The notes below the pieces were generated by a model. It was not told the origin of the DNA. It ran no database searches and worked only from the letters and a program-made list of their open reading frames with translations. A stretch of 34,092 nt of DNA from a virus: positions 1 to 34,092 of IMG/VR virus record IMGVR_UViG_3300006802_000277; one strand, written 5' to 3'. Below, one piece after another: positions 4,311-30,989 of the stretch (positions are counted from its first letter, which is position 1; each line of letters opens with the position of its first letter). The position numbers and the translations under genes are program-made.

Positions 4311-4589
4311 ATGATGCACTATGCAATGGGATCTGAGACTGTTTTCCATAAAGGAGTAACTCTAAAAACCATAGTTGGGAATACTCAAGCAGATAAGTTA
4401 GTTCAAAAATTTAATGAACAAGAAAAAACCACTTATACAAAAGTGCCTACAGGACTTGAACATAGACCTGATCTGCTAGCTAATCAACTATATGGAGATC
4501 CCGACCAAATATGGTTAGTGTGTTTATCATCTAATAGATTCGATGTTTTCGAAGATTTTGATTCCGGCTCTATAATAGAATTACTGTAA
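4311..4589 (+). CDS. gp53-like baseplate wedge protein (LysM/gpX-type)
   Basis: This 92-residue protein resembles the core of T4 gp53. The motif RPDLLANQLYGDPDQIWLV followed by SSNRFDVFEDF aligns well with RPEELANAIYGNPQLYWVL and the CNDNYDPY that follows in gp53. Gp53 locks adjacent baseplate wedges; the same small fold appears as gpX (LysM-like) in P2-type tails. It is much shorter than T4 gp53 (196 residues), lacking the C-terminal extension. Two ATG codons stand in tandem at 4311 and 4314, and either may be used. A 22-base AT-rich gap separates it from the previous gene, one of the wider gaps in the block. Confidence 0.75.
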   Translation: MMHYAMGSETVFHKGVTLKTIVGNTQADKLVQKFNEQEKTTYTKVPTGLEHRPDLLANQLYGDPDQIWLVCLSSNRFDVFEDFDSGSIIELL

Positions 4590-7058: not shown

Positions 7059-8168
7059 ATGAAATTATTAACAGCAAGTGTCATTAGTAATACTGATATT
7101 TACCAAGCTGGTAGATTCATTGTTAGCTCAACATCATTTACTGGTCCTAGATCTTGTATTTACACAAGCCCATTCGGTGGTTTACATAATCCAATAGATG
7201 GACAAAAAGCTGGATTTTTTGCTATACCTAGCATTGGACAGACTGTATTAATAGCACAAACCGATGACGTAGGGGGAGATAACTACTACTTAATTAGTGT
7301 TGTCCACGACATCGACACTAGATCAGACGGAGACTCAATCCCAGTCGTAGCCCGGTCAGGGCCTGTTCCTAAAGAACTTTATGACCTATATCCGGGATCA
7401 CCTCAAAAAGTTGTAATTAGAGACGCTTACTCTAATCGTCTAGTCCTCTCGCACGCTTACGCGCCCGAGAAGAATAAAGAAGTGAATAGAGCCGAGTTGA
7501 TTGGATCAAAAGGAAAGAAGCTTAGTTTAGATGAAAGTCCGTTAGTTAATAGAATTAGCTTAGAGAACGAGTATAGAGACGGGTTTTATCTTACGTCAGA
7601 CATCTCACCGATTTCCCCAGACATGGGAGAAAGGCATATGATCCTCAGAACTGTGGGGATGATGCAGCATCTGAGTGAATTAGGAATAGAAATGATAGTA
7701 ACTGAAGGCACTGAATTAACTATTTCTAATGAATCAACTGGTATAAATTCTGGTGGTGCCGCTGCCTTTGGTAATGTTAATCTAAGATCAAAGTTTAAAG
7801 ATATTAACATAACTTCTGATGGAGAGACTGGTAATATCTTAATTAGATCGTTAGGTTCTGATGGCGTAATTCAACTTAATTCTAATGGCGATATAATTAT
7901 AAAAACACCTTCAGATAAAAATGTATACATTGAGAGTGGTAATATTAACATAAAAGCCGAAGAAACTCTTAATCTTGAAGCACAGAACGTATATATTAAA
8001 GGCAATAATGCTACGACAATTTCAGGTGGCGGATCTTCGGTTTTAGATTTAACACCTTCGGACGCGAGTCTAGGAGGAACCTTAGTTAATCTAGCACCGC
8101 CTACTCCCCTACAGGCACCAAACGGAGCCGAAACTCGAACAGCAATTCAGAATGATTACGGAGAATAA
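7059..8168 (+). CDS. Baseplate central spike (gp5/gpV/VgrG-like), no lysozyme domain
   Basis: This 369-residue protein begins with an OB-fold-like domain (about 15-90), with SPFGGLHNP, then GFFAIPSIGQTVLIAQ and DNYYLISVVHD strands typical of gp5/VgrG N termini. A linker domain follows. Residues about 245-330 are short alternating strands (GNILIRS, GVIQLNS, GDIIIKT, KNVYIES, GNINIKA, ETLNLEA, QNVYIKG), the pattern of the triple-stranded beta-prism needle. The trimeric spike pierces the outer membrane. T4 gp5 (575 residues) has a lysozyme domain between these parts; here it is absent, so peptidoglycan cutting must come from elsewhere. A GGAGG ribosome-binding site precedes the ATG at good spacing, the strongest in the block. 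It ends in TAATG overlap with the next gene. Confidence 0.8.
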   Translation: MKLLTASVISNTDIYQAGRFIVSSTSFTGPRSCIYTSPFGGLHNPIDGQKAGFFAIPSIGQTVLIAQTDDVGGDNYYLISVVHDIDTRSDGDSIPVVARSGPVPKELYDLYPGSPQKVVIRDAYSNRLVLSHAYAPEKNKEVNRAELIGSKGKKLSLDESPLVNRISLENEYRDGFYLTSDISPISPDMGERHMILRTVGMMQHLSELGIEMIVTEGTELTISNESTGINSGGAAAFGNVNLRSKFKDINITSDGETGNILIRSLGSDGVIQLNSNGDIIIKTPSDKNVYIESGNINIKAEETLNLEAQNVYIKGNNATTISGGGSSVLDLTPSDASLGGTLVNLAPPTPLQAPNGAETRTAIQNDYGE

Positions 8169-11100
8169 TGGCAAACTTTGATATAAACTTATTTGCAAGT
8201 GTAGTAGGAAGAGACGGTAATCTTCTAGACTCAATACAAACAAGTTTTGGCTTCCCTTCATGCTTGAAGCAGCTAACTGCTGAAGCAGTCGCGTTGATAC
8301 CAAGATCTGTTCTAAATCAAGTTTTAGGATCGGGAGAGTCAGCCGAGGCTAAAGCTGACTCTGCATTAGCATCAATCTATAACACTTTTTCTTTCCGTAG
8401 TGGCGTAGTTAGTTATGTAACTAAAGACGGTCGAATACAGTTCGAGTCTAATAGTTCTGATTTGCTTGCAAATACGGATGCTAAGGAAGAAGTAAGAGAA
8501 ACTAACGCATTCCTAGATTTATTAAGTGACTTTGATGCAGCAGCGCAAGTTGGAGGCAATCTCTACAGAAACATTGAATCCCAATATCAGAGACTTCAAT
8601 CTATTAAGCAATGTCTAGAAAAGTTTAAAAATATTCAACGCTTCAAAAATGGATTGGGCGCAGATGAGGCTGCGGCTAACCTTACGAATGAACAATACGA
8701 CTCTCAAGTTGCAGCGGCTTACAGTAGATACTCTGCTCAAGTAAGTGCTATTGTCGCTGAAGCGGCAGCAATAAGTAATGTTGTATCGGTTATACGAACT
8801 GAGCTAGCCAGAAGAGAGCTAGACCCAAACGCAGAACCAGAAATAGATGCAAGATTTGCTAACTTAGTCTCAGGAACAAGTTTCAGAGTGGAATCAACTG
8901 ACGAGGATGATACAGGAGAGGAAATCATCAGGCTAGTTTATGGGCCACCAGAGACAACTAATGGTAGATATATCTTAACTACAGACGGACTCTATTATAA
9001 TTCACAAACGGACAATGAGCTAGAGCCAGTCTTACTATTTATATCAGATACTAGTGCATCAATAGGGGAAGCAGAAAAGTGGAAGTTTAACTTCCCTCCA
9101 AATGTTGGAGGGAAAGGTGACCAAATAAACTCAAAAACTTTTAATAAGTGGATAAATACTGTCTTTGATGAAAATATAATTGATGATTCTGAGGATCTAC
9201 AAGAGCACTACAACAGAGATCATTTTTTACAAGTTTTAGACGGACAAAAAGAAAAAAGAATATTAGACATAAATAAACAAATTGATAATCTGATAGAATC
9301 AGAAGCATCTCTTTCAATAATAGAAAATTTTAAACAAAGTTTATTAAGTGAAGTTGCTTATCACAATAGTAAAATAAACAGAAGGAAAAAGCAAATAGAA
9401 ATTGCTTTCAGAGCTCCTACAATTTTTGGAAGAGGCACAAGCCCCGCGCCTGGGAAAGTTCCAATTAATGATTTCTCTTATCTACAAGATTGTAATATTT
9501 CTCTGTCTTTGAATACACAAAAAAACTTAATCTTGAATCAAGAGGATGTTTCCGGTGTAGTCTTACCATTGAAGCCAACATTTGTAGTTAGCAAGTCCCC
9601 AGACGCCACCGAGACCATCGAACACCTGATAGTTCCTGAAGTGGGCATTGGTGGAATAATCATTGATGATACAGATCCCAATGACTCTAGTAGCTTGGAA
9701 CTTGCCATAAGTGATGTAGTGACTACTGATAACTTAATATCAGTTTACAACTTTTTAAATAGTAAAACAACAATACCTAGCTCTCTTGATTTTAATGTTT
9801 TAAACTGTAAGACCACAGATGATTACAATAATGCTCAACTAGTAGCACCTAATGCTGAATTTGTTTTCGGTAAATCTGATCAAGCCTCTTTTGGCTTTGG
9901 GTATGGACTAGGGGCGGCATATTTAGAAGGTATAACTAGAAACTATGGAATCTACCCTTCAGCTCTAGGTAGCTATGTAAAATTACCAGACACTGAAGAA
10001 TACCAGGACTGGCTATACTCTAAATCAGGGGCAACCTTTGATACTTGGGTTTACGCTCCGTATTTAACCTTTGATGATTCCTGGGACGATGGTTTAGATA
10101 CTTCAAGTCTTTACAGACTAATCCTTGCTTGCGAAAATACTGGATCACTTTCTTCAGTAACCAGATCTCCCTCGGAAGATATACTCAATGTTGGTTACAC
10201 CGATGGATCTGATTTTACTAAAGGTCTAATCATGGGCTTCACCCGAGACATTAGATGGAGAGGTCAGTCTGGGCCTACTAACGATGGCAGCCTACAGAAA
10301 GGCAAGGATGGAGGCTTTATATTAGCACCTACAATCGGATACGACTCTTCTTCAGTCGCTTTCATAGCAAAAGCAAAAGCCCAAAATACCTGTTTGAACA
10401 CTTCAGGTTGGTTAGGCATGTATGTTCCTTTAACTACACAGACAGATTCAGGTAAAACTTTAGAAGATTGCTCAAAGGGTTTCTGCCAGCTATCTCTTAC
10501 CTTCAATTATAAGACTGATACCGTCAGTCTATTTTTAGATTCTGAGCTTTTATCTACGTCTTCTATATCACAAGTTTTTGGATCTACTCCAACAAAATCA
10601 ATTAATTTACCGACATTTAAAAAACAAAATAGCTTTGAATACTCCCAAGATAGTGTTGGATATTTAGCTCCTGCATCTCTAAAAACTGGCCCAAGGCTGA
10701 ACAGCTACTTTACTCCATGGATTCTAGGCGGAGGTTACACAGACGGAATGTCTAAGACTGGTAACTTCATGGGCGGAGATTACGGAGGAGTTCGCAGTGG
10801 TTTACGAGGATTCTTAGGTAGCACAAAGTTTTATAGTAAACCGCTAACTCAAAAAGAATTAAGTTTTAATTATTCAGTTCAAAGTAAATTATACAAGAAC
10901 CTAGATGGCGTAAATAACGAATATAACATCATTATCGCAATCGGCCAGAGCAACATTGACGGAGTGTCAGCAACTTACGAAGACCCAGGAGTTCCTGAAA
11001 GATTCAGAAGAGTCCAAGCAAGAACTAAGATCTGGATGCCTGAGAGCTTCTCAGCCAGCGCAGGAACTTGGGAATACTTAGACCCAGTGAATATCTCGAA

Positions 11101-11848
11101 CCAAAGCTATGGTGGATATAACACAACTAGGTATGAGGTTCCTGGCATTGATCCTCAATTCCGATTTAACTTCTATTCCCATAGGTATTATGATCCCGTC
11201 ATGCAATTTATGCAGAGAATGGCAGATGACCTTAATGACGATGTATATCTCATCAAGAATACTAAGGGAGGAACATCAATGCTTAGTGGACTACCTGCAC
11301 CAGTTGACCTACTCTCTTGGACTAGTAATACCACAGCACCAGGACTCCAAGGTTATGATTTATACTCCACTCTGAAGTTCGATACTTCAGCAGCTATCTC
11401 TGCTTTGAGAGGGCCTTCCTATACTAAGGTTACAGTTAAGGCTATCTTGATGATGCAAGGTGAATTTGAATCAGGCAACTCAACGTTCCCGGGCACGCCT
11501 TACACCAATCCTGGAGACATGGCTCAGGAGTGGGATCAGTGCTTCACCGAACTCTTATACCCCAGACTCCAACAAGATATTAAGGAAAGCCTCGGAACAC
11601 CAGACGCCCCGGACATCCCTGTAATCTTTACAAAAGTCCATAGTGAGCTAGAGTCTGCGTCATTCCCGTATGTTTCGGACGTTCAAACACAACAAGAGAC
11701 AGCAGCAGCTAGAGCAGAACTTAATGCTTATTTAGTTGATGTTGATGGATTAAGCTTCACTGACGGAACTAGAGTCCACTTTAATGCTGAATCTCTGACG
11801 ACTATTGGTAATAAACTTTACGACAAGTATAAAGAGATTACTGAGTAA
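8168..11848 (+). CDS. Tail fibre/adhesin with LamG-like domain and C-terminal SGNH (sialate O-acetylesterase-type) esterase
   Basis: This 1226-residue protein has three visible parts. The N-terminal part (1-420) is helical and probably attaches to the baseplate; residues 430-600 are beta-rich. Residues about 615-910 look like a LamG/concanavalin-type lectin fold (ATFDTWVYAPYL, CQLSLTFNYKTDTVSLFLD, TPWILGGG). Residues about 918-1226 are an SGNH esterase of the CE6/SASA kind: G926-Q927-S928-N929 (nucleophile S928), G1034-G1035-T1036-S1037, Q1097-G1098-E1099, and D1199 with H1204 in DGTRVHFN. All catalytic blocks are present, so it should be active. The likely job is removing O-acetyl groups from host capsule or LPS sugars during adsorption. 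The gene lies between spike and gp25, an accessory position in tail operons. Its G+C content rises sharply at the esterase domain. Confidence 0.8.
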   Translation: MANFDINLFASVVGRDGNLLDSIQTSFGFPSCLKQLTAEAVALIPRSVLNQVLGSGESAEAKADSALASIYNTFSFRSGVVSYVTKDGRIQFESNSSDLLANTDAKEEVRETNAFLDLLSDFDAAAQVGGNLYRNIESQYQRLQSIKQCLEKFKNIQRFKNGLGADEAAANLTNEQYDSQVAAAYSRYSAQVSAIVAEAAAISNVVSVIRTELARRELDPNAEPEIDARFANLVSGTSFRVESTDEDDTGEEIIRLVYGPPETTNGRYILTTDGLYYNSQTDNELEPVLLFISDTSASIGEAEKWKFNFPPNVGGKGDQINSKTFNKWINTVFDENIIDDSEDLQEHYNRDHFLQVLDGQKEKRILDINKQIDNLIESEASLSIIENFKQSLLSEVAYHNSKINRRKKQIEIAFRAPTIFGRGTSPAPGKVPINDFSYLQDCNISLSLNTQKNLILNQEDVSGVVLPLKPTFVVSKSPDATETIEHLIVPEVGIGGIIIDDTDPNDSSSLELAISDVVTTDNLISVYNFLNSKTTIPSSLDFNVLNCKTTDDYNNAQLVAPNAEFVFGKSDQASFGFGYGLGAAYLEGITRNYGIYPSALGSYVKLPDTEEYQDWLYSKSGATFDTWVYAPYLTFDDSWDDGLDTSSLYRLILACENTGSLSSVTRSPSEDILNVGYTDGSDFTKGLIMGFTRDIRWRGQSGPTNDGSLQKGKDGGFILAPTIGYDSSSVAFIAKAKAQNTCLNTSGWLGMYVPLTTQTDSGKTLEDCSKGFCQLSLTFNYKTDTVSLFLDSELLSTSSISQVFGSTPTKSINLPTFKKQNSFEYSQDSVGYLAPASLKTGPRLNSYFTPWILGGGYTDGMSKTGNFMGGDYGGVRSGLRGFLGSTKFYSKPLTQKELSFNYSVQSKLYKNLDGVNNEYNIIIAIGQSNIDGVSATYEDPGVPERFRRVQARTKIWMPESFSASAGTWEYLDPVNISNQSYGGYNTTRYEVPGIDPQFRFNFYSHRYYDPVMQFMQRMADDLNDDVYLIKNTKGGTSMLSGLPAPVDLLSWTSNTTAPGLQGYDLYSTLKFDTSAAISALRGPSYTKVTVKAILMMQGEFESGNSTFPGTPYTNPGDMAQEWDQCFTELLYPRLQQDIKESLGTPDAPDIPVIFTKVHSELESASFPYVSDVQTQQETAAARAELNAYLVDVDGLSFTDGTRVHFNAESLTTIGNKLYDKYKEITE

Positions 11849-11879: not shown

Positions 11880-12344
11880 ATGTTTAATCTAGGAGAACAA
11901 GAAGTTGTTAGAGGAACTATCCCATCTAATGAAATTTTAGCTGGTATTAGACGAAAATCAAATAGTAAACGTCTTGGTCTTAAATTTCCTTTTGAAAATA
12001 CACTGAATGGTTACTTCTCTAAGATGGCAGATACCTCCGTCGTAAAGTCTAATCTTAGACAGTTAATAATGACAGAGCCAGGAGAGAGGTTAATGCTACC
12101 TGATTACGGGTGTCCTCTGAAATCTTTGCTATTCTTGCCTCTAGATGATGACCTTATCTCTGAAATGAGAGAGAGAATTTTTTTCTCAGTAAACACTTAT
12201 TTACCGACTGTAGAAATTTTAAGATTAGATGTTGAAGCATTAGATGAGTTTGCATCTAACGGCGTGCCTACTATTAAAATTACTTTAGTATGTAAGATTC
12301 GAGACTCTATTGATTCTATCTTTGATGTGAGTGTAGTATTATGA
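11880..12344 (+). CDS. 25: Baseplate wedge protein gp25 (gpW-like)
   Basis: This 154-residue protein belongs to the gp25/gpW family (T4 gp25 has 132 residues). Diagnostic segments are LRQLIMTEPGERLMLPDYGC, then LKSLLFLPLDD, a helix (ISEMRERIFFSVNTYLP) and TVEILRLDV. Gp25 is the conserved wedge core that bundles with gp6 and gp53 and contacts the sheath, passing on the contraction signal. The ATG is 31 bases after the fibre gene stop, with AGAGG in good position. It overlaps gp6 by ATGA, so translation is likely coupled. The N-terminal 35 residues are a basic extension compared with short family members. Confidence 0.9.
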   Translation: MFNLGEQEVVRGTIPSNEILAGIRRKSNSKRLGLKFPFENTLNGYFSKMADTSVVKSNLRQLIMTEPGERLMLPDYGCPLKSLLFLPLDDDLISEMRERIFFSVNTYLPTVEILRLDVEALDEFASNGVPTIKITLVCKIRDSIDSIFDVSVVL

Positions 12345-13957
12345 ACTTTGATGGAACAGTCGGCTCAGATTTCCTAAAAGCCGTAAGATACCCAGAAGAA
12401 CGAAAGCAAAGTCTCATAGACTTCGCTGGCTCAGACTTCACTACTCTTAGGCTAAATTTAATTGATTATATCAAAGCAGTTTACCCATTAGATTATAACA
12501 ATTTTGTTGAATCTGATTTAGGTATGATGCTCGTAGATTTAGTCGCTTATGTCGGGGCTATGACCTCTATGAAAGCAGACTACTTAGCTAATGAGAACTA
12601 TTTGAGGACAGCAAAGAATAGAAATAATGTTAAAAAACTATTAGAACTCATAGGGATTCGATTAAAGGGACCAATAGCAGCAGCGGCTAACGCGACAATC
12701 TCCTTTGAGGAGTCTCCTTATGCTCAAGCGGATGATGTCTTAGTAATAAATTTTGCAGACAGAATTGTCCAAATAGCTTCTCCAGAAGATGGAGCACCAC
12801 TTACATACACGCTCTATAAAGTTACTAATGGCCTAGTTGATCTACCAAACGCTGAAGCCTCAATAACTCTAACTGAATCAGAGGGCGTAGGTTTTGATTA
12901 TGATAATCCAGGGTCTGTGGTTATTCATGATAACTTAGTATTACTGGAAGGTGCTTTGGTTAGAAAAACTGGGACTTTTGGAAGCTTCACAGGCATAAAA
13001 ACTGTAGCCCTGGATAGCAGCCCAGTCATAGAAGGGTCCATTGAAGTATTTATCAATGGCACTAACCAAACCAGTGGAGTCTATAGCAGAGTAGATAACA
13101 TATACTTCGCCTCGGGCGGAGATGCTAAAATCTTCCAAGTTATCTCTGACGATGATTTTAAAGCCACTGTAGTGTTTGGCGATAACCTGATCGGGAGATC
13201 CCCAGCCCCAGGTGATAGCTATGTCATAACGTATCGAGTTGGTGGAGGGACAAGAGGTAACATTAATAAAGAAATCATCAATGCTCCTATACAACTAACT
13301 AATACAACTCAATCAACTACATCCAATGGAACACTAGAGAACTCTAGTAAAGCGACGGGAGGCTCTGACGCAGAAACAGTAGAGCACGCTAAGAAGTATG
13401 GACCGTTATCCTTCCGAAGACAGGATAGAGTAGTTACTCTACATGATTTTGATTCTTTTGTGAATAGCTTTATTTCTTCGTATGGCTCCATTGGTAAATC
13501 TGTTGCAGCCACGAGACGAGCTTATTCCTCTGCAAATATTATTGACGTTTATGTATTAGAGAAAGCATCTGATTTGCAAATGAGAAAAGCAACTCCAACT
13601 TTTAAGAAAGAACTAATAGATGCTATAGAACCAAAAAAGATGTTGACAGACGAGATAGTTGTAGTTGATGGTTTGATAAGAACCTTAGACTTAGTGGTGA
13701 CCGCTAGAATAGATAGGGAGCTTAGAGAAAACTCTGAGATTATTAAACTAAAAATTAGAGACGCCATACTATCTTACTTTAATGTTGACAACAGAAGTTT
13801 TGGTCAATCATTTGAACCTGCTGACTTAGCTAGAGTTGTATTTCAAATACCTGAAGTAATATTCGCTTCGGTAGACAATTACCCAGAAACTGTCCTCATT
13901 GATTTCAATGAGATAATTCAGTTAAATAATCTAACCATTAACCTAGTGAGAGTTTGA
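12341..13957 (+). CDS. 6: Baseplate wedge protein gp6 (baseplate J-like)
   Basis: This 538-residue baseplate_J-family protein is shorter than T4 gp6 (660). The N terminus has DFTTLRLNLIDYIKAVYPLDY followed by DLGMMLVDLVAYVGAMTSMKADYLANE, the helical start of gp6-type wedges. The centre has ADRIVQIASPED and VVFGDNLIGRSPAPGDSYVITYRVGGGTRGN, the typical J-domain GD/GR/GG motif region. The C terminus ends FGQSFEPADLARVVFQIPEV, again family-typical. Gp6 forms the iris ring that encircles the hub and couples wedge movement to sheath contraction. It is coupled at both ends: ATGA from gp25 and TGATG into the following gene. Confidence 0.9.
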   Translation: MNFDGTVGSDFLKAVRYPEERKQSLIDFAGSDFTTLRLNLIDYIKAVYPLDYNNFVESDLGMMLVDLVAYVGAMTSMKADYLANENYLRTAKNRNNVKKLLELIGIRLKGPIAAAANATISFEESPYAQADDVLVINFADRIVQIASPEDGAPLTYTLYKVTNGLVDLPNAEASITLTESEGVGFDYDNPGSVVIHDNLVLLEGALVRKTGTFGSFTGIKTVALDSSPVIEGSIEVFINGTNQTSGVYSRVDNIYFASGGDAKIFQVISDDDFKATVVFGDNLIGRSPAPGDSYVITYRVGGGTRGNINKEIINAPIQLTNTTQSTTSNGTLENSSKATGGSDAETVEHAKKYGPLSFRRQDRVVTLHDFDSFVNSFISSYGSIGKSVAATRRAYSSANIIDVYVLEKASDLQMRKATPTFKKELIDAIEPKKMLTDEIVVVDGLIRTLDLVVTARIDRELRENSEIIKLKIRDAILSYFNVDNRSFGQSFEPADLARVVFQIPEVIFASVDNYPETVLIDFNEIIQLNNLTINLVRV

Positions 13958-21152: not shown

Positions 21153-24100
21153 ATGGCTACTTATTTAATGAACGATCTTTACACGGCATCTGGTTCGGCC
21201 AGATTATTTGGCTGCTGGACCGAAGCGGTCACAAAACACACGCCGTCTAATTTCTACAACTACGAAGAAGATAACTTACCTCTCTATGATTTGGATGAGA
21301 GAGACGAGCTTCTTTGGGAGCAGCTAGGATACCCGACATCTTCGATTCCTGGCATGGTTCTTCTTGTCTCAGCAGACGCTCCAGCAGGATCTGTAGCTTG
21401 CAATAAGAATATATTTTATGATGTAAGTTCTTTACAGAAAGCATTACCAAAATTTATTAATTACCCATTGATAATTGAAGTCGCCAGTTATGGAGATTTA
21501 GGAGAACTTGAGTTAAAAGACATAACAATGGGACCATCAGGTAGTTTAGAAATAATCAATAGATTAAATCATGCTCCTCCCTTTTTTCAGGTTATTGATG
21601 CTTCCGCTTATTCACGAGTCTCTACAGGACCTCATACAAACTATGCTATAAACAAAAATGTGTCAGCAGGGGTTGAAAGTAATTTTTATAATTTTATTTC
21701 AAATGCTAACGGATTTTCTCCGTCATCCTTACTTCTTAATACTTACGTCATGTCTGGAGGCGTGGCTATATCACAGTTCAAGACCGATGAAAGGGCACTA
21801 ACGGCTTTCAAAGGGTTTTACGGAAGTAGACCAGCTTCACAAGAAGTCTCCAACCAAGAGTTCACCAGATTGTCTGTGGCTGATTTAACTCTGCCATTAA
21901 ACTGGGGATTACTGATGAATGTAACAGGGTCAGTCTATGAGGAGCAAAGTTTATCAGAAATTTACTCATATGATCCTAGTTGCTTTAACCAAACTACAGG
22001 AGATGAAACGTTTAGAACCTTCCCTCTTGATATCGAAGATTCTTCAAGCTACCAAAGGTTTGTAGCTTACGGAAACTATTTTAGAAAAATTACAGTGACT
22101 AACTGTAACGGTCCTCTTTATATTAGAGGTTTCTATTGCTCAGGAGATGGTGAGACTTCAGAAATAGGTGTAGAGGTTAATGATTCTACAGTTAGTTTTG
22201 AAGGTTTAGCAGTAGATCACTTCGTATCTAAAGGAATCAGCATTAAAAATTCAACAGTAGACTTTAAGAGAGATCTTTTTGTAAACAGATGTTATGGGCT
22301 GGACTCTGGTGGTAATAGATTATCAGGTGATTGGCTTACCATAAATTCTAAGTCATTTGATCCTCCCAAGGATGATTCTGCCGGGATAGAAGCACTCAAC
22401 TCAGAAATATTTTTTGATACGACCGAGGAGCATACAGCACCATTAGCAGCAGCTAATAGCGGCGTATTTAACGCAGGTCTATACTTGAGAGTAATATCTA
22501 GAAACTCGACAGGTATGAGACTAATAAACTCTTTAGTAAGAGGAGGCAGCTCAAGACCAACAGACAGATTAAACTCAGCCGCAGGTGTCTACTACATGGA
22601 TTTCTTATCTTTTGAAGGAAACGCTAATTACGGTATTGAGTTAGAGAATAGTAGATTTAGATTTGAAGGTAGACTAGAAGTATTTAATAATACTAGAGGT
22701 ATAAGATCTGCTAACAGTAACTTTAATGTTGAAGAATTTTGTGTAGAGAATAATCAGATCTATGGCATGTATTTAGATAATTCCGAATTTAAATTTAATT
22801 TAAATGGGGTTTCTGCCACAGAAAGATTTGATTTTTCTTGGTCAAGAGCCATCATACCTGATACCAGATATACCAAACAGTTCTCTTACAAATTTAAACA
22901 AAATGGTCAACATCTGATCATGCGTAATTCAACGTTCAGACCTAGCAAATTTCCTAGCATGGAAAAGTTTTTTGGTAGAATGTTGATGATTGATGCTCAC
23001 GGAATTAGTGATGATAGTATTGGGTCTTTGTTACCATCAGTTCAGATGGACTCATCTGTAGCTGAATTTATCCATCTCACTTCAATTAGGGCTGGGGAAT
23101 CGCTGAAGGTCGCTAAGGGTGCTCACATTTATGCCTCAAATAATTCAGAATTAACTTGTCTAGGGACTGTTAGTGCTATGAATTCTTTCATAGCGGGTAG
23201 TGATACTCCAACATATAGTGAAATGAAGCATTACGCAGCTATTTGTGCTGAGAATGGATCTACTGTTAAGTTTAGAGGACCAAACATAGTCTATGACGGG
23301 GCAGTAAACGTTTATGCTAATAGAAATTCTAGCATCGTATTCGAACCACACAAAAAACAAAATGGTGAGTTTGATATCGAAGGATTCTCATTAACTGACT
23401 CAAGATCTCATACGATGATAGAATTAAAGGGTTATAATTCTTGCTTGGTGGCAAATAACAACTCAAATATTATAATGGAAGATTTGGGTGATTATACAGT
23501 TAATTGGCCTTTTGACGAGACAGTTTCTACTAACTATGCAACATCCTCAGAAGGATTTAACTTCGCCACTTACACGTCAGCAGGATTCTTCCAGTTCTAC
23601 CCGAACCCTAACGAGTCTTATGACTATACACAATTCCCACAAGTCTTACAGAATAGAGGAACTCTATGCCAAATGACAGAAAATGGCGCAGGTAGTAATG
23701 AGTATTATTTTGGGAGAAACTTCTGGGACATTGATCCATTCGATTTATCTGCTCTTACAGAAGGCGGAGTTTGCTTACGAGCTTTAAACAACTCAAATGT
23801 TAGAGTTAGGAATGTTCACTTCCCTTGTGGTTGGTGGAATGCGAGTGCCGCCTATTATGATACTAGTTCCTCTGAAGGCTTCTGTTGTAGAACGTTTATT
23901 TGGAACGTAGCTAACAACTCTACTATGCACGTTGACCACGTTAGTGTTAGCTCAACTTATCCTTACTTAGCAGGTTATCATGGGCCATCAGCAGTCTGGG
24001 TAAGTGGTGCTAACAACGAACCAGCGTATGGATTACCTTCAGGCACACCTGATACCTCTTCCCTCTCAATTTTAGATTTCTTTGGAGTGGGCTCTGGAGT

Positions 24101-24602
24101 AGGTAATGCGTGGGTTATCCCTGATGGCACGGTTGCTGTATATGGTCAAACAAGTTTTGAGAATCAAGGACCTTTTAGACTTTACGTTGGTGTAGACTCT
24201 ATGGCAAATAGTTTGGTCCATGCAGGAGGAGTTGGTCTTATCCAACAAATATATGCTCAAGGATACGCACCATCTGGGCCAGCATACTGTTTACCTGATA
24301 CAAGTGCGTTATATGGAAAACTTTTCCACGTAAATGAAAATGGCAATCTAGCAACGTCAGGGTATTTTTATGCTGACCAAATGGTCAAGTGCGATCCTAA
24401 CTCAATTATGTTAGATGAATCAGCAGCTAGCTTGTTTGCAAATGCTAAAAACGGCGCAATGGGGACATCAAGAAGACCTCAAATATGCACTATTTATTCA
24501 GCAGAAAATTCTAACTATGGAGAAGGTAGAAAAGCTATAAATGGTGTGGTAGGTAAGGGATTCAAGAGTGCTAATATTTTTGATCTACTAGAAGAGAACT
24601 GA
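21153..24602 (+). CDS. Large beta-helix appendage protein (tailspike-like)
   Basis: This 1149-residue protein has an N-terminal docking motif at residues 34-58 (FYNYEEDNLPLYDLDERD), shared with the next protein. From about residue 343 to 927 it carries roughly 15 rungs of the form (N/D/E/R)-N-S-x-hydrophobic-x-hydrophobic, for example NDSTVSF, KNSTVDF, ENSRFRF, DNSEFKF, RNSSIVF, NNSNVRV and NNSTMHV. This spacing and the Asn ladder indicate a right-handed parallel beta-helix, the fold of many tailspikes and pectate-lyase-like proteins. Such proteins bind or cut surface polysaccharide. I cannot pick out catalytic acids, so binding only is possible. The C terminus (980-1149) is a separate domain. 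It starts one base after the preceding stop. Confidence 0.7.
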   Translation: MATYLMNDLYTASGSARLFGCWTEAVTKHTPSNFYNYEEDNLPLYDLDERDELLWEQLGYPTSSIPGMVLLVSADAPAGSVACNKNIFYDVSSLQKALPKFINYPLIIEVASYGDLGELELKDITMGPSGSLEIINRLNHAPPFFQVIDASAYSRVSTGPHTNYAINKNVSAGVESNFYNFISNANGFSPSSLLLNTYVMSGGVAISQFKTDERALTAFKGFYGSRPASQEVSNQEFTRLSVADLTLPLNWGLLMNVTGSVYEEQSLSEIYSYDPSCFNQTTGDETFRTFPLDIEDSSSYQRFVAYGNYFRKITVTNCNGPLYIRGFYCSGDGETSEIGVEVNDSTVSFEGLAVDHFVSKGISIKNSTVDFKRDLFVNRCYGLDSGGNRLSGDWLTINSKSFDPPKDDSAGIEALNSEIFFDTTEEHTAPLAAANSGVFNAGLYLRVISRNSTGMRLINSLVRGGSSRPTDRLNSAAGVYYMDFLSFEGNANYGIELENSRFRFEGRLEVFNNTRGIRSANSNFNVEEFCVENNQIYGMYLDNSEFKFNLNGVSATERFDFSWSRAIIPDTRYTKQFSYKFKQNGQHLIMRNSTFRPSKFPSMEKFFGRMLMIDAHGISDDSIGSLLPSVQMDSSVAEFIHLTSIRAGESLKVAKGAHIYASNNSELTCLGTVSAMNSFIAGSDTPTYSEMKHYAAICAENGSTVKFRGPNIVYDGAVNVYANRNSSIVFEPHKKQNGEFDIEGFSLTDSRSHTMIELKGYNSCLVANNNSNIIMEDLGDYTVNWPFDETVSTNYATSSEGFNFATYTSAGFFQFYPNPNESYDYTQFPQVLQNRGTLCQMTENGAGSNEYYFGRNFWDIDPFDLSALTEGGVCLRALNNSNVRVRNVHFPCGWWNASAAYYDTSSSEGFCCRTFIWNVANNSTMHVDHVSVSSTYPYLAGYHGPSAVWVSGANNEPAYGLPSGTPDTSSLSILDFFGVGSGVGNAWVIPDGTVAVYGQTSFENQGPFRLYVGVDSMANSLVHAGGVGLIQQIYAQGYAPSGPAYCLPDTSALYGKLFHVNENGNLATSGYFYADQMVKCDPNSIMLDESAASLFANAKNGAMGTSRRPQICTIYSAENSNYGEGRKAINGVVGKGFKSANIFDLLEEN

Positions 24603-24603
24603 T

Positions 24604-26922
24604 ATGGCTGAAATAAATTATAGAGATAGCGAATATAGATTTCGTTCACCAGTTAGATACTTTACCGCAAATGACCCATATTACTGGGAGGTAGACAATA
24701 TCCCTCTCCAGCAATTAATGGAGAATGATTTATGGCTTAGAGATCAACTCACTCAAGGTGGCGGTAGTTCATTTACAGGTATTAATAGGCGAGACATTAA
24801 TGAGCTTAAACCTTATGTAGATGAGACTAATAATATCGTTAAAGTAAAGCCTGGTAGATTTACCGCAAGAATAAATGATATTAGTTCTTCAGTTAAGTTT
24901 CAAGAAATTCGAAGAATCGCAGGTCAGATGTTCAATGAGAGACACACCTGGGAATTTACGACTTACGACTCAACAGCAGTTCAAGCTAATATTGACAAGA
25001 TTGTCTCTGAAGTAGAAACCGACGCTACATTTTTAAATGGTTTGTCAGAGAGAGCTTTTACTCACCCCTCTGTCACTCCATACATCCCTTATATTGATTA
25101 CAGAACTGGTGCTTCTACCTGGAACCCGAACTTACCTCTTAGAGATATTGTATTCTTTATTGTAGACCCCACCACGGGCACAATCCCAGGATCTGATAAT
25201 AGAGTTATCGGATCAAACTTTTCTGAGCGACAGGAAGCACAGATGGTGGCGGATCAAAGTATCCAACCATATTTTATGCAGTATTGGAGAGGTGTCGCTA
25301 GAACGTCTGTGGTAGATGTCCCTGAAGAGTTAGAGATAGAAATTCCTGCGTTCAACCTGTCAGACTTTGATTACATAGACAGAAATGGTAATGTAGTTTC
25401 TCGTCCTGGAGCGGAGCTTAGAATAGACTTATTATTTGTCTACTCTAAACCAATTGATTCTTTAGAATCTAAAGTTCTTGATCCGACTAACCCAGAAGGT
25501 AGAAGAGTCATTACAAGAGCTGAGTTAGGAATAGTTAAGGGAGCTGGAGCAGTTTTCAGCCTTCTTAGAGGTAACAGAACAACAGTCGAAGATGACGGTG
25601 GTTTTGATGAAGTCGGAAATCCTCAAATTGTTGGTAGCGTAGCAGACCATAAAGGAACTTTCGCAGGATTTTCTAATGAGGGTGTTCACGGATCTTTCCC
25701 ATCACCTGATGACTTAATGAATATCTCTCCGTTGATTTCTGAACAGTTAGAGGATAATGATCCTTTTTTAATCGGTCAAACAGTTTTACCAATTGCTTAT
25801 GTTGTTGTTAGAAAAAATCCATCAGTTAACCAAGCTGGTGTTCAAGTTCTAACAGAGTCATCAATCATTGATATTAGACCGTTCTTTAGAACAACTGAGT
25901 TATCTTATAATGAGCGTGCTGGTATAGCCGCAGCTATGCCTTCATTATCAATATCTAATCCTGTAGTAACCAAACTAGAACTTAGGTATGAGACAAAACG
26001 TCTATACGATGATTATATCTCTAGGATAAATCCAGCTAGCCAAGGTTTAGTCGATGGATCTTTCCCAAGAGTTGTTGCAGCAGGATACGTTATGGGTGGA
26101 TCACTATTTGGGCCTGAAGCAGCAATACAAGAACAATATCTTAGACAGAATCCAAACCTGACACCAGCTCAACTAATTTCAGAAATGGTGGCTAAACATG
26201 GATATAGACCAGACATAATAATTCCATCCTATCCTGACTGGGATTTAGCTCGTTGGGCTACAGATTTTGCTGTAGCTGGAAACTTTAGTCCCGGCCCAGG
26301 AACTCAAAGAAATGACTGGGTTAATCTTGCACGTAGAGGCGATATAAATACTGCCGAAGAAGAATTTGATTTTGGTTCATTTGAAACAACAGAAAGACTA
26401 AATAGAATTAAAAAAATATCATCAGAAGCATTCCAAGGTAAAGCTGATATTCTATTTGTCAAAAAAACTTTTACAGTTGATAGATCTCAAATAGGTTGGG
26501 ATGTAGAGGATTTCCATGTTACGGCAAACTTCTTTAACTGTGTGCCATTATCCTGTCGCTATAACTCTAATGATGACAGAGTTTATCCTGGAGCATCAGA
26601 TATTTGGATAAGCAAGACACCTAATGGATTTACTATTTATGTAGCTTGGAGCGCAGCTTCCATGAGAACAACCGGTAATGGAGGTGGTCCCGAATATCCT
26701 TCAAATGCAAGAAGCAGCAGAAACTACTCAGGATTTCTAGTTACGGACGGTGAGATGTTTAATAGACTAGGATCTAAAGGTGCCGCAAACGCTAGACTTC
26801 CTGGAGAGCCCGCTATGGGTATTTCAACTTACCCGACTGTAACATTCCAAGTAATTGGTATGCCGACAGCTTATAGAGGTATGGCTACTAACACTAAAGG
26901 AAATCTAGTAAGGTTCTACTGA
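24604..26922 (+). CDS. Virion structural/appendage protein with shared docking motif
   Basis: This 772-residue protein starts one base after the beta-helix gene stop. Residues 26-49 (YYWEVDNIPLQQLMENDLWL, then RDQL) repeat the docking motif of the upstream protein, here followed by a GGGSS linker. Next comes an extended region (DINELKPYVDETNNIVKVKP, GRFTARIND) usual in fibre-attachment proteins, then a long mixed domain with several helices (around 440-620). The C-terminal beta domain (FHVTANFFNCVPLSCRY and following) ends NLVRFY. No enzyme motif, signal peptide or membrane segment is visible. Similar proteins with a DNIPL motif occur in marine T4-like phages as baseplate-associated structural proteins (from memory). 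It is probably a trimeric or multimeric connector. Confidence 0.65.
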   Translation: MAEINYRDSEYRFRSPVRYFTANDPYYWEVDNIPLQQLMENDLWLRDQLTQGGGSSFTGINRRDINELKPYVDETNNIVKVKPGRFTARINDISSSVKFQEIRRIAGQMFNERHTWEFTTYDSTAVQANIDKIVSEVETDATFLNGLSERAFTHPSVTPYIPYIDYRTGASTWNPNLPLRDIVFFIVDPTTGTIPGSDNRVIGSNFSERQEAQMVADQSIQPYFMQYWRGVARTSVVDVPEELEIEIPAFNLSDFDYIDRNGNVVSRPGAELRIDLLFVYSKPIDSLESKVLDPTNPEGRRVITRAELGIVKGAGAVFSLLRGNRTTVEDDGGFDEVGNPQIVGSVADHKGTFAGFSNEGVHGSFPSPDDLMNISPLISEQLEDNDPFLIGQTVLPIAYVVVRKNPSVNQAGVQVLTESSIIDIRPFFRTTELSYNERAGIAAAMPSLSISNPVVTKLELRYETKRLYDDYISRINPASQGLVDGSFPRVVAAGYVMGGSLFGPEAAIQEQYLRQNPNLTPAQLISEMVAKHGYRPDIIIPSYPDWDLARWATDFAVAGNFSPGPGTQRNDWVNLARRGDINTAEEEFDFGSFETTERLNRIKKISSEAFQGKADILFVKKTFTVDRSQIGWDVEDFHVTANFFNCVPLSCRYNSNDDRVYPGASDIWISKTPNGFTIYVAWSAASMRTTGNGGGPEYPSNARSSRNYSGFLVTDGEMFNRLGSKGAANARLPGEPAMGISTYPTVTFQVIGMPTAYRGMATNTKGNLVRFY

Positions 26923-26923
26923 G

Positions 26924-29900
26924 ATGACCGAGATTAAGTTTGGCTGCGGAGAATTTTTTCCCGGAACAAAACGAACACCACCCCCAAAAGGTGGGGGCGA
27001 CCCACCAGACTTAATTGCAGTAGATCCGAGAGTCCCTACTCCTCCTCCGATTTCAGTCCCACCGCCACCGGTTGAAGACTTTTGGGTTTGCACTTGCACA
27101 GAAGTAACTACACCGATGCCTCCAGGAGACCCTGGCAATACGACCACCTGTGATTTAGCGACAAGAAAGTGTATTAAACAAAGTATGATGCCTGTTGGTG
27201 TTCCAAGAAGCGCGCAATCCTTCTTAACAAAGCAAGCATGTGAGAATATTGGGTTTGGAGAAGAACCTTGTTCTGTAGTTTTATTTAAATGCTATGAGTA
27301 TGAAAAATACTGCCCAGAAATTCAACAGTTTATCTGGACTAAAACTTGTATAAATTGCAAAAATCCTACAACCGGCGGCAACAGATTCCCAGGACCTATC
27401 TGGGCGAACGGATGTATTCATCCCTCAATCATTCAATGTCAGATACAAGAAGAATGCTACGATGTTGAGTGCCCTCCACCAACAGGAGAAGTCCCACCAG
27501 CAGATAGAGAGCCAGGAGGAGACCCAGGAGGCAATTTAGATCCAAGAAGGCCAGGTAATCCCACTGAAAAATTTAGAGGGCCTATAACACCTGGGGGTAG
27601 AAGAACTCCAATGTGGAAGTGTCAACAAGGTCTCAAGAGATATTGTCCACCACCAAACCAAACGAACGTAAGCGCAACTTACTCTGAATGTCAATATGTA
27701 TTGAACCCTCCAGTAAACGCCAGTCGCCGAGATGGATGGTTTGATAGTCAACAAGAGTGTAGAGAGTCTTGCTACCAAAGAGTTGTTTATAGCCCCTGTC
27801 CAATCGTCATAAGAGATCAAACAGATTTACCTGGGACCATAACTACTTTCGAGCCATTACCACCAGATAGCCTACCACTTCCCGAGCCAGACAACAATAC
27901 TGGTGCGGACACCAGATTCGGACGACTTCCAGGAGGCCCTGCAATCTTAAACAACCGTGAGGATACTTCGACAATATCTCAAATATTACCAGGACCTCTT
28001 CCTCGTATATTCGATGGAGGAAGCACAACGTTTGAAGATACCACTCGGAGAAGAGATGAAGATACATTTAGATCTCCTTTAGGATTAGAGAATGCTTCAT
28101 TTAGAACGATAGTTGATAATGAAAATTTATTAACTTCCATTAATCAATCAATCATAAATGAAAGTTTTAATGAAGCTAATATGTTTAAAGTGATTGATGT
28201 AGAAAATTATTATCAATCTGAATTTAGTGACACTTCTCTTAGTGGTCAAGGAGATCTTTATCATCCCATCTATAACATTTTTAATTACGAAAAAACTGTA
28301 TTTGACTCAACTCAGTTTGTTGAAAATGATTTAAGGCGAGATATTTTCGCAGAACTTGTTAGCCCAGAAGTTAAATATCTGCTAGAAAATAAAAATAAAG
28401 AAGGGGAGTGGAGTGATAAATTAGCTTTAGGACTATCTCACATTAAATTAATTAAATCGTTAAGAGTTGATGTTTACGAGTTGTTTAAATCAATTTTAGA
28501 TATAGACGGACAACCACTGCCAGCAGATTTTTTTGTCAGTATGATAAAACGCCATTTAGTCTATGGCACAATTGATAACTTAGATATGAGTTATTTTTCA
28601 AAGTTAAAAGATACTCAAAAAGAAAGAAAACATTTAGAACTTTTAAAATCACAAAACAACGAGCTAAATCATAGAGCTGCTTTAGGTCTAATTGCTAATT
28701 CTGGCTTTAGTGTTGATATCAATAAATATTCAGTAATTCAAGATAAGATCGAAGCTGCAAGACAAAGACATTTACTGACAGATCTTGAAACTAGTGTTCC
28801 TGTCGAAGTTTTAGATGGCACAACTCTAAATATCCCACTAACTGATGCTGGATTATCTGTAAGTTCTTTAGCGGACGTTGAGGAGTTTGTAGATGTGGGT
28901 CCTGGAGATGGTTACTACTTTGTTATAGAAACATTAGATGGTCTTGAGATACCCCTGGAGTTGGATACTGCGGTTTCTGCTAGTTACGCTATAACTCCTG
29001 ATGTTAGAAAAATTGCTCTGGAGATGATCGGGAAAAATCATTACATGAACTTTACAGTCAGCTCCTCTTTTAATAATTCAGAATTTGGTGCTGATTATAA
29101 CACTAACTACACCGCAAGTGCTCAATATTATAAGTTAGAACTTTCTTCAGTAACTGAGTTACCCAGCGATGATAACTTTGTTACCGTAACTTTTGCGAAG
29201 TATGTATTGTTAACAGATGAAGATAAGATCTACGAACACTCTAGAACTTATGGAGCGAAGTCCACTCAACTTAACCTTCAGTATGATGATCCTTTTATTC
29301 AATATGCACAGAATAATGGATCATTTAATATGAGCAAAAATGATATTACTATGAAAAACTTTGAAGGCAACAGAACTTCAGGATCTTACTCAAAGATAGT
29401 AAGACCAATGCCTCAAGCTATAATAATAAATCCAACAAATAACATAGAAAAAAATCCTTTCTATGTTTATTCAAATTTAGAAACTATAACAGAAAACCAG
29501 GTTTCTCGAAGAGTCTTTGCAACACCTAATTTTGGTTTAGATAAATTCCAAGAACGTAGATCACCAATACCAAACAAACTAACTGCTTTTGAAGAAAACA
29601 CATATCAATTAGGGTTAGTAGGAATAAAAGATACTCAAAATGTTTATTATCCTTTTGATAAATCAATTTATTCCGAAAAATTTACTGTCACAAAAAGATC
29701 TCCTGAAGGAGAGATCTTCTATAATTTACTAGAGAATACATTAAAAGCTAATTATACTTTCTCGTATCTAACTTGGTGGGATGTATACAGAAGATTGACG
29801 ATGACTGAAATGACTAGATTCATCTATTCTGTCCCACAAAATTTCTTAGCAAGTTTAGAGAAAGGATTTAAAGGCTATAAAATAAAACCAGTTCTTCAAA

Positions 29901-30007
29901 GAGATTTGGCACTTTCTTCTGATCTAAAATTGAAACCTGAAAAAGAAGAATCTAAAATTGTTTTAACAGACAGGCTTAGGTATAAAACTACAAACATAAT
30001 AGCTTGA
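26924..30007 (+). CDS. Cys- and Pro-rich virion protein with Cys-free C-terminal region
   Basis: This 1027-residue protein splits sharply in two. Residues 1-292 contain 21 cysteines and many prolines (PPPKGGGDPP and a VPTPPPISVPPPPV run near 38-50). At least two modules share a layout: W54-x-C56 with C83-x22-C106, and W231-x-C233 with C256-x22-C279, each closing with a second Cys after 3-9 residues. This suggests small disulfide- or metal-stabilised domains on a proline-rich stalk. Residues 293-1027 have no cysteine. They include a helical region (about 440-620) with HIKLIKSLRVDVYELFKS and a beta region with YYKLELSSVTELPSDDNFVT. Phage genes with W-x-C and spaced-Cys modules are known in marine T4-like phages, of unknown function. 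Context implies a virion appendage. It starts one base after the previous stop. Confidence 0.65.
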   Translation: MTEIKFGCGEFFPGTKRTPPPKGGGDPPDLIAVDPRVPTPPPISVPPPPVEDFWVCTCTEVTTPMPPGDPGNTTTCDLATRKCIKQSMMPVGVPRSAQSFLTKQACENIGFGEEPCSVVLFKCYEYEKYCPEIQQFIWTKTCINCKNPTTGGNRFPGPIWANGCIHPSIIQCQIQEECYDVECPPPTGEVPPADREPGGDPGGNLDPRRPGNPTEKFRGPITPGGRRTPMWKCQQGLKRYCPPPNQTNVSATYSECQYVLNPPVNASRRDGWFDSQQECRESCYQRVVYSPCPIVIRDQTDLPGTITTFEPLPPDSLPLPEPDNNTGADTRFGRLPGGPAILNNREDTSTISQILPGPLPRIFDGGSTTFEDTTRRRDEDTFRSPLGLENASFRTIVDNENLLTSINQSIINESFNEANMFKVIDVENYYQSEFSDTSLSGQGDLYHPIYNIFNYEKTVFDSTQFVENDLRRDIFAELVSPEVKYLLENKNKEGEWSDKLALGLSHIKLIKSLRVDVYELFKSILDIDGQPLPADFFVSMIKRHLVYGTIDNLDMSYFSKLKDTQKERKHLELLKSQNNELNHRAALGLIANSGFSVDINKYSVIQDKIEAARQRHLLTDLETSVPVEVLDGTTLNIPLTDAGLSVSSLADVEEFVDVGPGDGYYFVIETLDGLEIPLELDTAVSASYAITPDVRKIALEMIGKNHYMNFTVSSSFNNSEFGADYNTNYTASAQYYKLELSSVTELPSDDNFVTVTFAKYVLLTDEDKIYEHSRTYGAKSTQLNLQYDDPFIQYAQNNGSFNMSKNDITMKNFEGNRTSGSYSKIVRPMPQAIIINPTNNIEKNPFYVYSNLETITENQVSRRVFATPNFGLDKFQERRSPIPNKLTAFEENTYQLGLVGIKDTQNVYYPFDKSIYSEKFTVTKRSPEGEIFYNLLENTLKANYTFSYLTWWDVYRRLTMTEMTRFIYSVPQNFLASLEKGFKGYKIKPVLQRDLALSSDLKLKPEKEESKIVLTDRLRYKTTNIIA

Positions 30008-30008
30008 C

Positions 30009-30989
30009 ATGGTTAATATATTAACAGTAGGAACTCACATAAGTCTAGGTCACGGCTGTGCGAATGCTATTACCTGCACAACTCCAAATAATAGCAAAGT
30101 AACGGTAGAAGGACTTTTAGCAGTTAATACTACTAGTCCATGTGTCCCTCATAACTTTTGTGGACCTGACGCTCCTCACATACCTATAACATTACCTTCA
30201 CAAACAACTGTTAAGGTAAACGGAGAACCAGTTAATGTTGATGCAACTCCTTTAGGATGTGGAGATATATTATTTTCGTTCGCACCGTCTAAAGTAGCTC
30301 TGTTTAGAAATCCTGGCTCCAACCAAGTGCCTGGGCAAATAGCCGATCGGGTTGCTTATATCTCAGACTACCCTAAAGTTAACTATCGGGCAGACAAAGC
30401 TATCAAAGTTATTTACAAAAAAGATGGATTCGGAGAAGGAGCTCCTTATGTCGCTGATACCTTTTGCCCTTTTGGTGGGTCTTTCTCGATTCAAGATGCT
30501 TACACTCCAATAGCAGTTTCTTCTTCTGCTGGGATCACCGAATCCAGAAATTACCCAGGTCCGCCCATATCATCTAGATCAGGCGCTGTGGGAATCCCTA
30601 GTTATTCAACACTAAATAATCCCTTGCCCATAGCACTAAGAATATTAGGAGTTTATGGAGTATCTGTATCAACCGATAATTTTCTAAATAGACGGGTAAG
30701 AGGGGAACGTTTAGATCACAATCTTCAACTAGATCCTAATACATTGACGATCTCTAATTTAGAATCAATAAGGCTTACACCTAGTATTAGAAATTCTATT
30801 CTAGGTAAGTTATTTGGAGAACCAATAAAAGCATTTTTGTTAATAGACTATATCCCAGGATTTTTTTATGGAGATATTTTTGTAGAACCTCCTCTTCTTT
30901 ACCCAGAACAAGTCGATGGGGGGTGGACTACAAATAGAGTTCAAAGTATTGGGATAGGTTTTACGAGACAGAGAGGTGGTAACTGCTAA
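30009..30989 (+). CDS. PAAR-like tip protein with extra C-terminal domain
   Basis: This 326-residue protein has a PAAR-like N terminus (residues 1-90). It shows VGTHISLGHGCANAITC, a strand KVTVEGLLAVN, CVPHNFC and TTVKVNGEPVNVDATPLGCG. H15, C17, H48, C51 and C84 are possible zinc ligands. PAAR proteins cap the spike needle with a sharp conical tip (gp5.4 in T4) and can carry effector or extra domains. Here residues about 100-326 form an unrecognised domain, with a GYYGDIFVEPP-like aromatic patch and a final GFTRQRGGNC. The gene ends the tail block, 22 kb from the spike gene, unlike the adjacent arrangement seen in many phages. Fold call is fair; the zinc residues are inference. Confidence 0.65.
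   Translation: MVNILTVGTHISLGHGCANAITCTTPNNSKVTVEGLLAVNTTSPCVPHNFCGPDAPHIPITLPSQTTVKVNGEPVNVDATPLGCGDILFSFAPSKVALFRNPGSNQVPGQIADRVAYISDYPKVNYRADKAIKVIYKKDGFGEGAPYVADTFCPFGGSFSIQDAYTPIAVSSSAGITESRNYPGPPISSRSGAVGIPSYSTLNNPLPIALRILGVYGVSVSTDNFLNRRVRGERLDHNLQLDPNTLTISNLESIRLTPSIRNSILGKLFGEPIKAFLLIDYIPGFFYGDIFVEPPLLYPEQVDGGWTTNRVQSIGIGFTRQRGGNC

Follow-up and report, generated by a model that had tools for sequence, protein, structure and literature searches.

A modular cysteine-rich arm in a candidate baseplate protein shared by uncultured contractile-tailed phages

The product of the open reading frame at positions 26924-30007 of the window (here, the whole stretch of DNA analysed, a 34092-base IMG/VR virus record which may be a fragment) is proposed to be a baseplate or tail-tip protein of a contractile-tailed phage, carrying an exposed arm of disulfide-held modules that would likely make contact with the host. 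We assign this reading a probability of about 0.5. It builds on a bipartite layout, modular variation, split genes, paired gain and loss of cysteines and gene context, all of which were shown by comparison of sequences. The protein is, on the same kind of evidence, one member of an undescribed family common to many uncultured phages.

Cysteine distribution and features of the protein

The reading frame is open on the + strand and translates to a protein of 1027 aa, in which all 21 cysteines are located within residues 8-292 (positions 8, 56, 58, 76, 83, 106, 116, 123, 130, 142, 145, 164, 172, 178, 183, 233, 241, 256, 279, 283 and 292); the other 735 residues are free of cysteine. Assuming uniform placement, the chance of finding all 21 in the first 292 residues is ~3e-12. 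Cysteine accounts for 7.2% of these N-terminal 292 residues, compared with 0.71% for the window's other listed ORFs. The cysteines are distributed over an N-terminal anchor peptide (one) and three modules, designated here as M1 (six), M2 (eight) and M3 (six). A W-x-C motif is present at residues 54-56 and 231-233, while C-x22-C spacing is observed at residues 83-106, 233-256 and 256-279. The following features were delineated:

26924..30007, + strand: whole gene, encoding the 1027-aa bipartite protein (ORF, cysteine count)
26939..26965, + strand: N-terminal anchor peptide F6-G-C8-G-E-F-F-P-G14, containing the single cysteine that lies outside the modules
26966..27082, + strand: Pro/Gly-rich flexible linker, residues 15-53 (sequence; pLDDT <50)
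27083..27274, + strand: cysteine module M1, residues 54-117, six cysteines (counterparts in L129/L082 and L144)
27284..27475, + strand: cysteine module M2, residues 121-184, eight cysteines (HMM match; putative pairs C130-C183 and C145-C164, from co-loss)
27476..27613, + strand: Pro/Gly-rich linker, residues 185-230 (mostly low pLDDT)
27614..27802, + strand: cysteine module M3, residues 231-293, six cysteines (HMM match; AlphaFold beta-beta-alpha)
27614..27802, + strand: cysteines of M3, with putative pair C241-C292 and core C233, C256, C279 and C283
27803..28198, + strand: low-complexity linker, residues 294-425 (pLDDT <50)
28211..30004, + strand: conserved cysteine-free C-terminal domain, residues 430-1027 (aligned in 27 members; pLDDT mostly 60-90)

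The anchor motif FxCGxFxPG begins nearly all full-length family members, and its residues F6, C8, P13 and G14 are invariant among 15 aligned members. By profile comparison, M1 is only weakly related to M2 and M3.

Relatives in uncultured phages

The window protein yielded no match in Pfam (E up to 1), PHROGs, NCBIfam, PDB or cultured phages, and a direct protein search of IMG/VR was likewise without a match, the relatives being reached by other routes. The gp6-like neighbour (see below) led to 80 related loci, and in 14 of the 50 associated records that were searched a relative was identified, mostly of the C-terminal part. With alignment-based scans, the family grew to comprise 67 distinct sequences on IMG/VR contigs, a number of which are fragmentary. 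When the relatives were compared with profile libraries, no match above threshold was obtained, Pfam returning unrelated sub-threshold families. The family was absent from the cultured phages and prokaryote genomes scanned, and a scan for relatives by way of PAAR genes found nothing. The 595-kb phage record LR756511.1 was found to encode a relative of gp6, with no family member within ~20 kb of it.

The C-terminal domain of ~600 aa is conserved family-wide (67 distinct sequences) and contains zero to eight cysteines, while the number of cysteines following the anchor in the N-terminal part ranges from zero to 82. In L133, the two halves are encoded by separate genes, the first specifying 497 aa with 29 cysteines and the next 650 aa without cysteine; in L121, the anchor and cysteine part and the C-terminal part are also separate genes. 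Both its evolution and its composition thus mark the protein as bipartite.

The initial annotation had described a bipartite protein with 21 cysteines in its first 292 residues and none in the 735 that follow; the residue count agrees, and the separate genes of L133 and L121 strengthen the bipartite description. A match to a described family, which that annotation had named as grounds for giving up its view, was sought in Pfam, PHROGs, NCBIfam and PDB, and did not occur. Its W-x-C and C-x22-C modules also proved to be real, to the exclusion of one detail, as the identical x22 spacing is not conserved among relatives (see below); the third module, at residues 121-184, was absent from it.

Six members (L126, L130, L092, L166, L167 and L170) lack modules, which shows that the particle can do without them. 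Pure Pro/Gly linkers take the place of modules in L126 and L092. The member at L120:1597-8007 represents the extreme of the family, with 2137 aa and 84 cysteines; its modules comprise about ten copies of W-x-C...C...YxTxxxCxxxC in addition to CxC modules. The module-free member at L130:1971-4055 has eight cysteines in its C-terminal domain, compared with the usual zero to two in others.

Gene neighbourhood

The window contains a contractile-tail baseplate cluster with gp53-kind, gp25-like, gp6-like and PAAR-like genes, the gp names representing our own reading of PHROG wedge families:

4311-4589: gp53-kind wedge gene (PHROG wedge family)
11880..12344, + strand: gp25-like baseplate wedge gene (phrog_261, E 1.5e-14)
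12341..13957, + strand: gp6-like baseplate wedge gene (phrog_219, E 2e-41)
24604..26922, + strand: directly upstream gene, with an N-terminal DPYYxEVDNIPLxQL motif (homologue kept upstream of the family in relatives)
30009..30989, + strand: directly downstream gene, encoding a PAAR-like spike-tip protein (phrog_281, E 4e-5; NCBIfam PAAR, E 0.002, under its cut-off)

In relatives, a conserved order was observed in which a beta-helix fibre gene is followed by the gene with the DPYY motif and then by the gene encoding the cysteine arm; at loci with flanking sequence, a homologue of 24604-26922 usually precedes the family gene. Much of the close clade has a PAAR-like gene directly after the family gene; in the other clade, no PAAR gene is evident beside the conserved family gene. 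On a related contig, genes for a head protease and a major head protein are located downstream. Placement in a baseplate cluster with conserved gene order is as expected of a contractile-tail baseplate protein, and this gene order suggests that the protein is present in the virion.

The upstream protein (24604-26922) starts with F-x-x-NDPYY[FW]E[VI]DNIPLxQLxEN, which was identified in 29 of 37 homologues including that of the window, and a similar motif, EEDNLPLYDLDE, occurs in the fibre protein encoded by the preceding gene (21153-24602). This shared motif may represent a baseplate-attachment peptide. The PAAR-like protein (30009-30989) contains seven cysteines in 326 aa and has a long C-terminal extension beyond its PAAR part. 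Elsewhere in the window, a fibre-like protein of 1226 aa (8168-11848) contains a GQSN motif, which we take to be suggestive of a hydrolase domain of the SGNH/sialate esterase type, and an exonuclease-like gene (28-642; phrog_69, E 1e-14) lies at the margin of the structural cluster.

Variation among the cysteine modules

Relatives carry no module, one, several or more than ten. The equivalents of the C-x22-C segments in the nearest relative, L082, are x21 and x20, and loop length varies widely over 61 module matches; identical C-x22-C spacing was consequently rejected as a defining feature. In another clade, the first module type (type A) is replaced by a second type of ~110 aa, with the arrangement CxC...C...C...CxxxC. 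Among the loci examined, no protein outside the family was found to contain first-type modules, and no description of modular cysteine-rich tail proteins, or of strings of optional disulfide mini-domains, was found in the open-access literature.

Cysteine pairing

The number of cysteines after the anchor was even in 31 of the 35 members of the first set with a non-zero count. Among members found later, which served as an out-of-sample test, 18 of 19 had an even count as printed; with L148 corrected by removal of one cysteine upstream of its start codon, all 19 did. The counts are often 2 modulo 4, with values such as 6, 10, 14, 18, 22, 34 and 82, none of which is divisible by four.

For the analysis of pairing, 55 type-A modules were aligned, six partial or out-of-register matches being left out. 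Eight recurrent cysteine positions were recognized, and four of these (C1, C3, C6 and C7) are very rarely missing. C2 and C8 were both present in 40 modules, both absent in 14 and discordant in one; the corresponding numbers for C4 and C5 were 37, 17 and one. As judged by eye, the discordant modules (L133n_46 and L134_64) carry a displaced cysteine. The C2-C8 and C4-C5 associations also hold across 31 non-redundant clusters (P = 3e-6 and 2.5e-7, respectively), compared with P ~0.07 for the control cross-pairs C2-C5 and C4-C8, which gauge relatedness alone, kinship among members being a factor that inflates pairing P values.

Such gain and loss of cysteines by partner pairs is the behaviour expected of a disulfide-bonded protein, and the co-loss of C2 with C8 and of C4 with C5 indicates that these pairs form disulfide bonds more probably than part of a metal site. 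Because these positions covary, bonds are predicted between C130 and C183 and between C145 and C164 in M2, and between C241 and C292 in M3. The initial annotation had left a choice between metal binding and oxidation after release; pairwise loss and even counts favour disulfides, while the core four cysteines may hold a metal. As a general rule, its premise of rare disulfide use in virions may be correct; the phages Milano (PMC10811340) and 7-7-1 (PMC12796354) nevertheless provide clear precedents.

Structure prediction and comparison with Kunitz domains

AlphaFold prediction of M3, using 22 module sequences, returned a beta-hairpin followed by a helix, with a mean pLDDT of 80.8; comparison of this model with PDB gave no fold match at E up to 0.001. 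The full-length model had a mean pLDDT of 56.9, with a moderately confident C-terminal domain, and gave no usable fold match in PDB and BFVD. When PDB was searched with a C-terminal domain profile, no relative emerged, and the fold searches of PDB and BFVD revealed neither a lectin fold nor a binding fold of another kind.

M3 resembles Kunitz/BPTI domains in its cysteine spacing (C-x7-C-x14-C-x22-C-x3-C), in the order of hairpin and helix, and in its F-x-[ST]-x3-C-x3-C ending. The corresponding spacings of BPTI are x8, x15, x20 and x3; the six cysteines of the Kunitz pattern are bonded 1-6, 2-4 and 3-5, and two-disulfide Kunitz forms exist, such as anntoxin (2kcr). The module differs from this pattern in having an extra cysteine, C8, after the helix and in lacking Kunitz cysteine 4. 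The sequence hits of the module profile in PDB were headed by anntoxin, at E 0.33, and included ixolaris, at E 4.1; none of them is significant. Assignment to the Kunitz family was rejected, as there was no Pfam Kunitz match, no Kunitz chain was present among 37 weak matches (a test with power limited by the small size of the domain), and the optional pairs C2-C8 and C4-C5 (module numbering), with C8 after the helix, do not reproduce the Kunitz bonds.

Discussion

Phage particles assemble in the reducing cytoplasm. In the proposed role as a baseplate or tail-tip protein, the conserved C-terminal domain and the N-terminal FxCGxFxPG peptide would attach the protein to the particle, and the flexible Pro/Gly-rich arm between both ends would carry M1-M3 as small, independently folding modules, optional and exchangeable between relatives. 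The module disulfides would form once the particle leaves the cytoplasm, oxidation being expected to require either lysis or an oxidizing compartment. The arm would then act as an exposed adhesion or attachment arm touching the host surface, with disulfides stabilizing the mini-domains outside the cell; this host-binding role of the modules is our inference.

Known systems offer partial parallels. In Milano, the baseplate, sheath and fibres contain inter-chain disulfides, with reduction being required for contraction, and cysteine makes up 2.1% of the structural proteins (PMC10811340); in phage 7-7-1, the capsid holds disulfides (PMC12796354). These phages and the window virus have in common a contractile tail, cysteine-rich structural protein and disulfides in the mature particle, the last being predicted from sequence in the present case. 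Milano and 7-7-1, however, possess many cysteine-rich structural proteins with many inter-subunit bonds, whereas in the window virus, to the extent covered by the window, the cysteines are confined to the arm modules of one protein and apparently pair within modules; Milano-type enrichment was not found across the other listed ORFs (0.71%). Alg11 of the contractile injection system AlgoCIS has a disulfide, C268-C1000, which joins cage to iris and is needed for firing (PMC13314943), and what is described there is a single bond with no modular cysteine-rich arm. Ig-like domains in phage adhesins mediate surface binding and are likewise modular (PMC13370021); compared with these, the window modules are cysteine-based, of another fold and set in a low-complexity arm, and binding would be a presumed property.

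The Milano precedent raises the question of an inter-subunit lock, in which the cysteines, above all anchor Cys 8, would cross-link the protein to adjacent baseplate or fibre proteins, stabilizing the tail until reduction at the host, as inter-chain disulfides are reduced for contraction in that phage (PMC10811340). The anchor cysteine, being nearly invariant and left over after the even count, fits such a lock. Pairs gained and lost within one module fit intra-module bonds instead, the other window proteins are not cysteine-rich (0.71%, against 2.1% for Milano structural proteins), and members without modules exist, so that we regard a lock as distinctly unlikely. The modules might alternatively be metal sites, their four invariant cysteines (1, 3, 6 and 7) holding Zn or an Fe-S site in the cytoplasm, where assembly favours metal over disulfide; near-constant co-presence of the core four and the common CxxC are in line with this. 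Counts that are often 2 modulo 4, the pairwise disappearance of C2-C8 and C4-C5 and the lack of a zinc-family match in the profile searches argue against it, and we judge it improbable.

Variable module number and type between two conserved ends would also be compatible with modules that have no ligand and serve as rigid spacers, or as beads resistant to proteases, along a tether from the anchor to the C-terminal domain, and pure Pro/Gly linkers do stand in for modules in L126 and L092. The existence of two module types and of conserved surroundings, e.g. [FY]x[ST]x3C, suggests more than filler, and the split genes indicate that the tether need not be continuous; spacers are accordingly considered unlikely. 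Finally, the gene immediately precedes a PAAR-like gene, both here and in a number of relatives, a position that would suit a spike-tip cargo or effector that rides on the PAAR protein and is delivered into the host. Such a role is highly improbable given that the profile searches returned no family of toxins or enzymes with a score above cut-off, that the family is kept without an evident adjoining PAAR gene in the other clade, and that its large, strongly conserved domain is as expected of a structural part.

Beyond the reading of this single protein as a baseplate or tail-tip component with an exposed arm, it is possible, though somewhat doubtful, that uncultured large phages evolved their own class of disulfide modules, carried in variable number on the arm of a baseplate protein, folded after release and used for host contact. 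If true, such modules would be to phages what the disulfide-rich extracellular domains arranged in tandem are to animals. A tail protein that bears arrays of disulfide mini-domains raises the questions of when and how these are folded, and of whether oxidation following lysis arms the particle. Covariation yields specific, checkable predictions of bonds, and the modules may represent a compact, evolvable scaffold for host contact.
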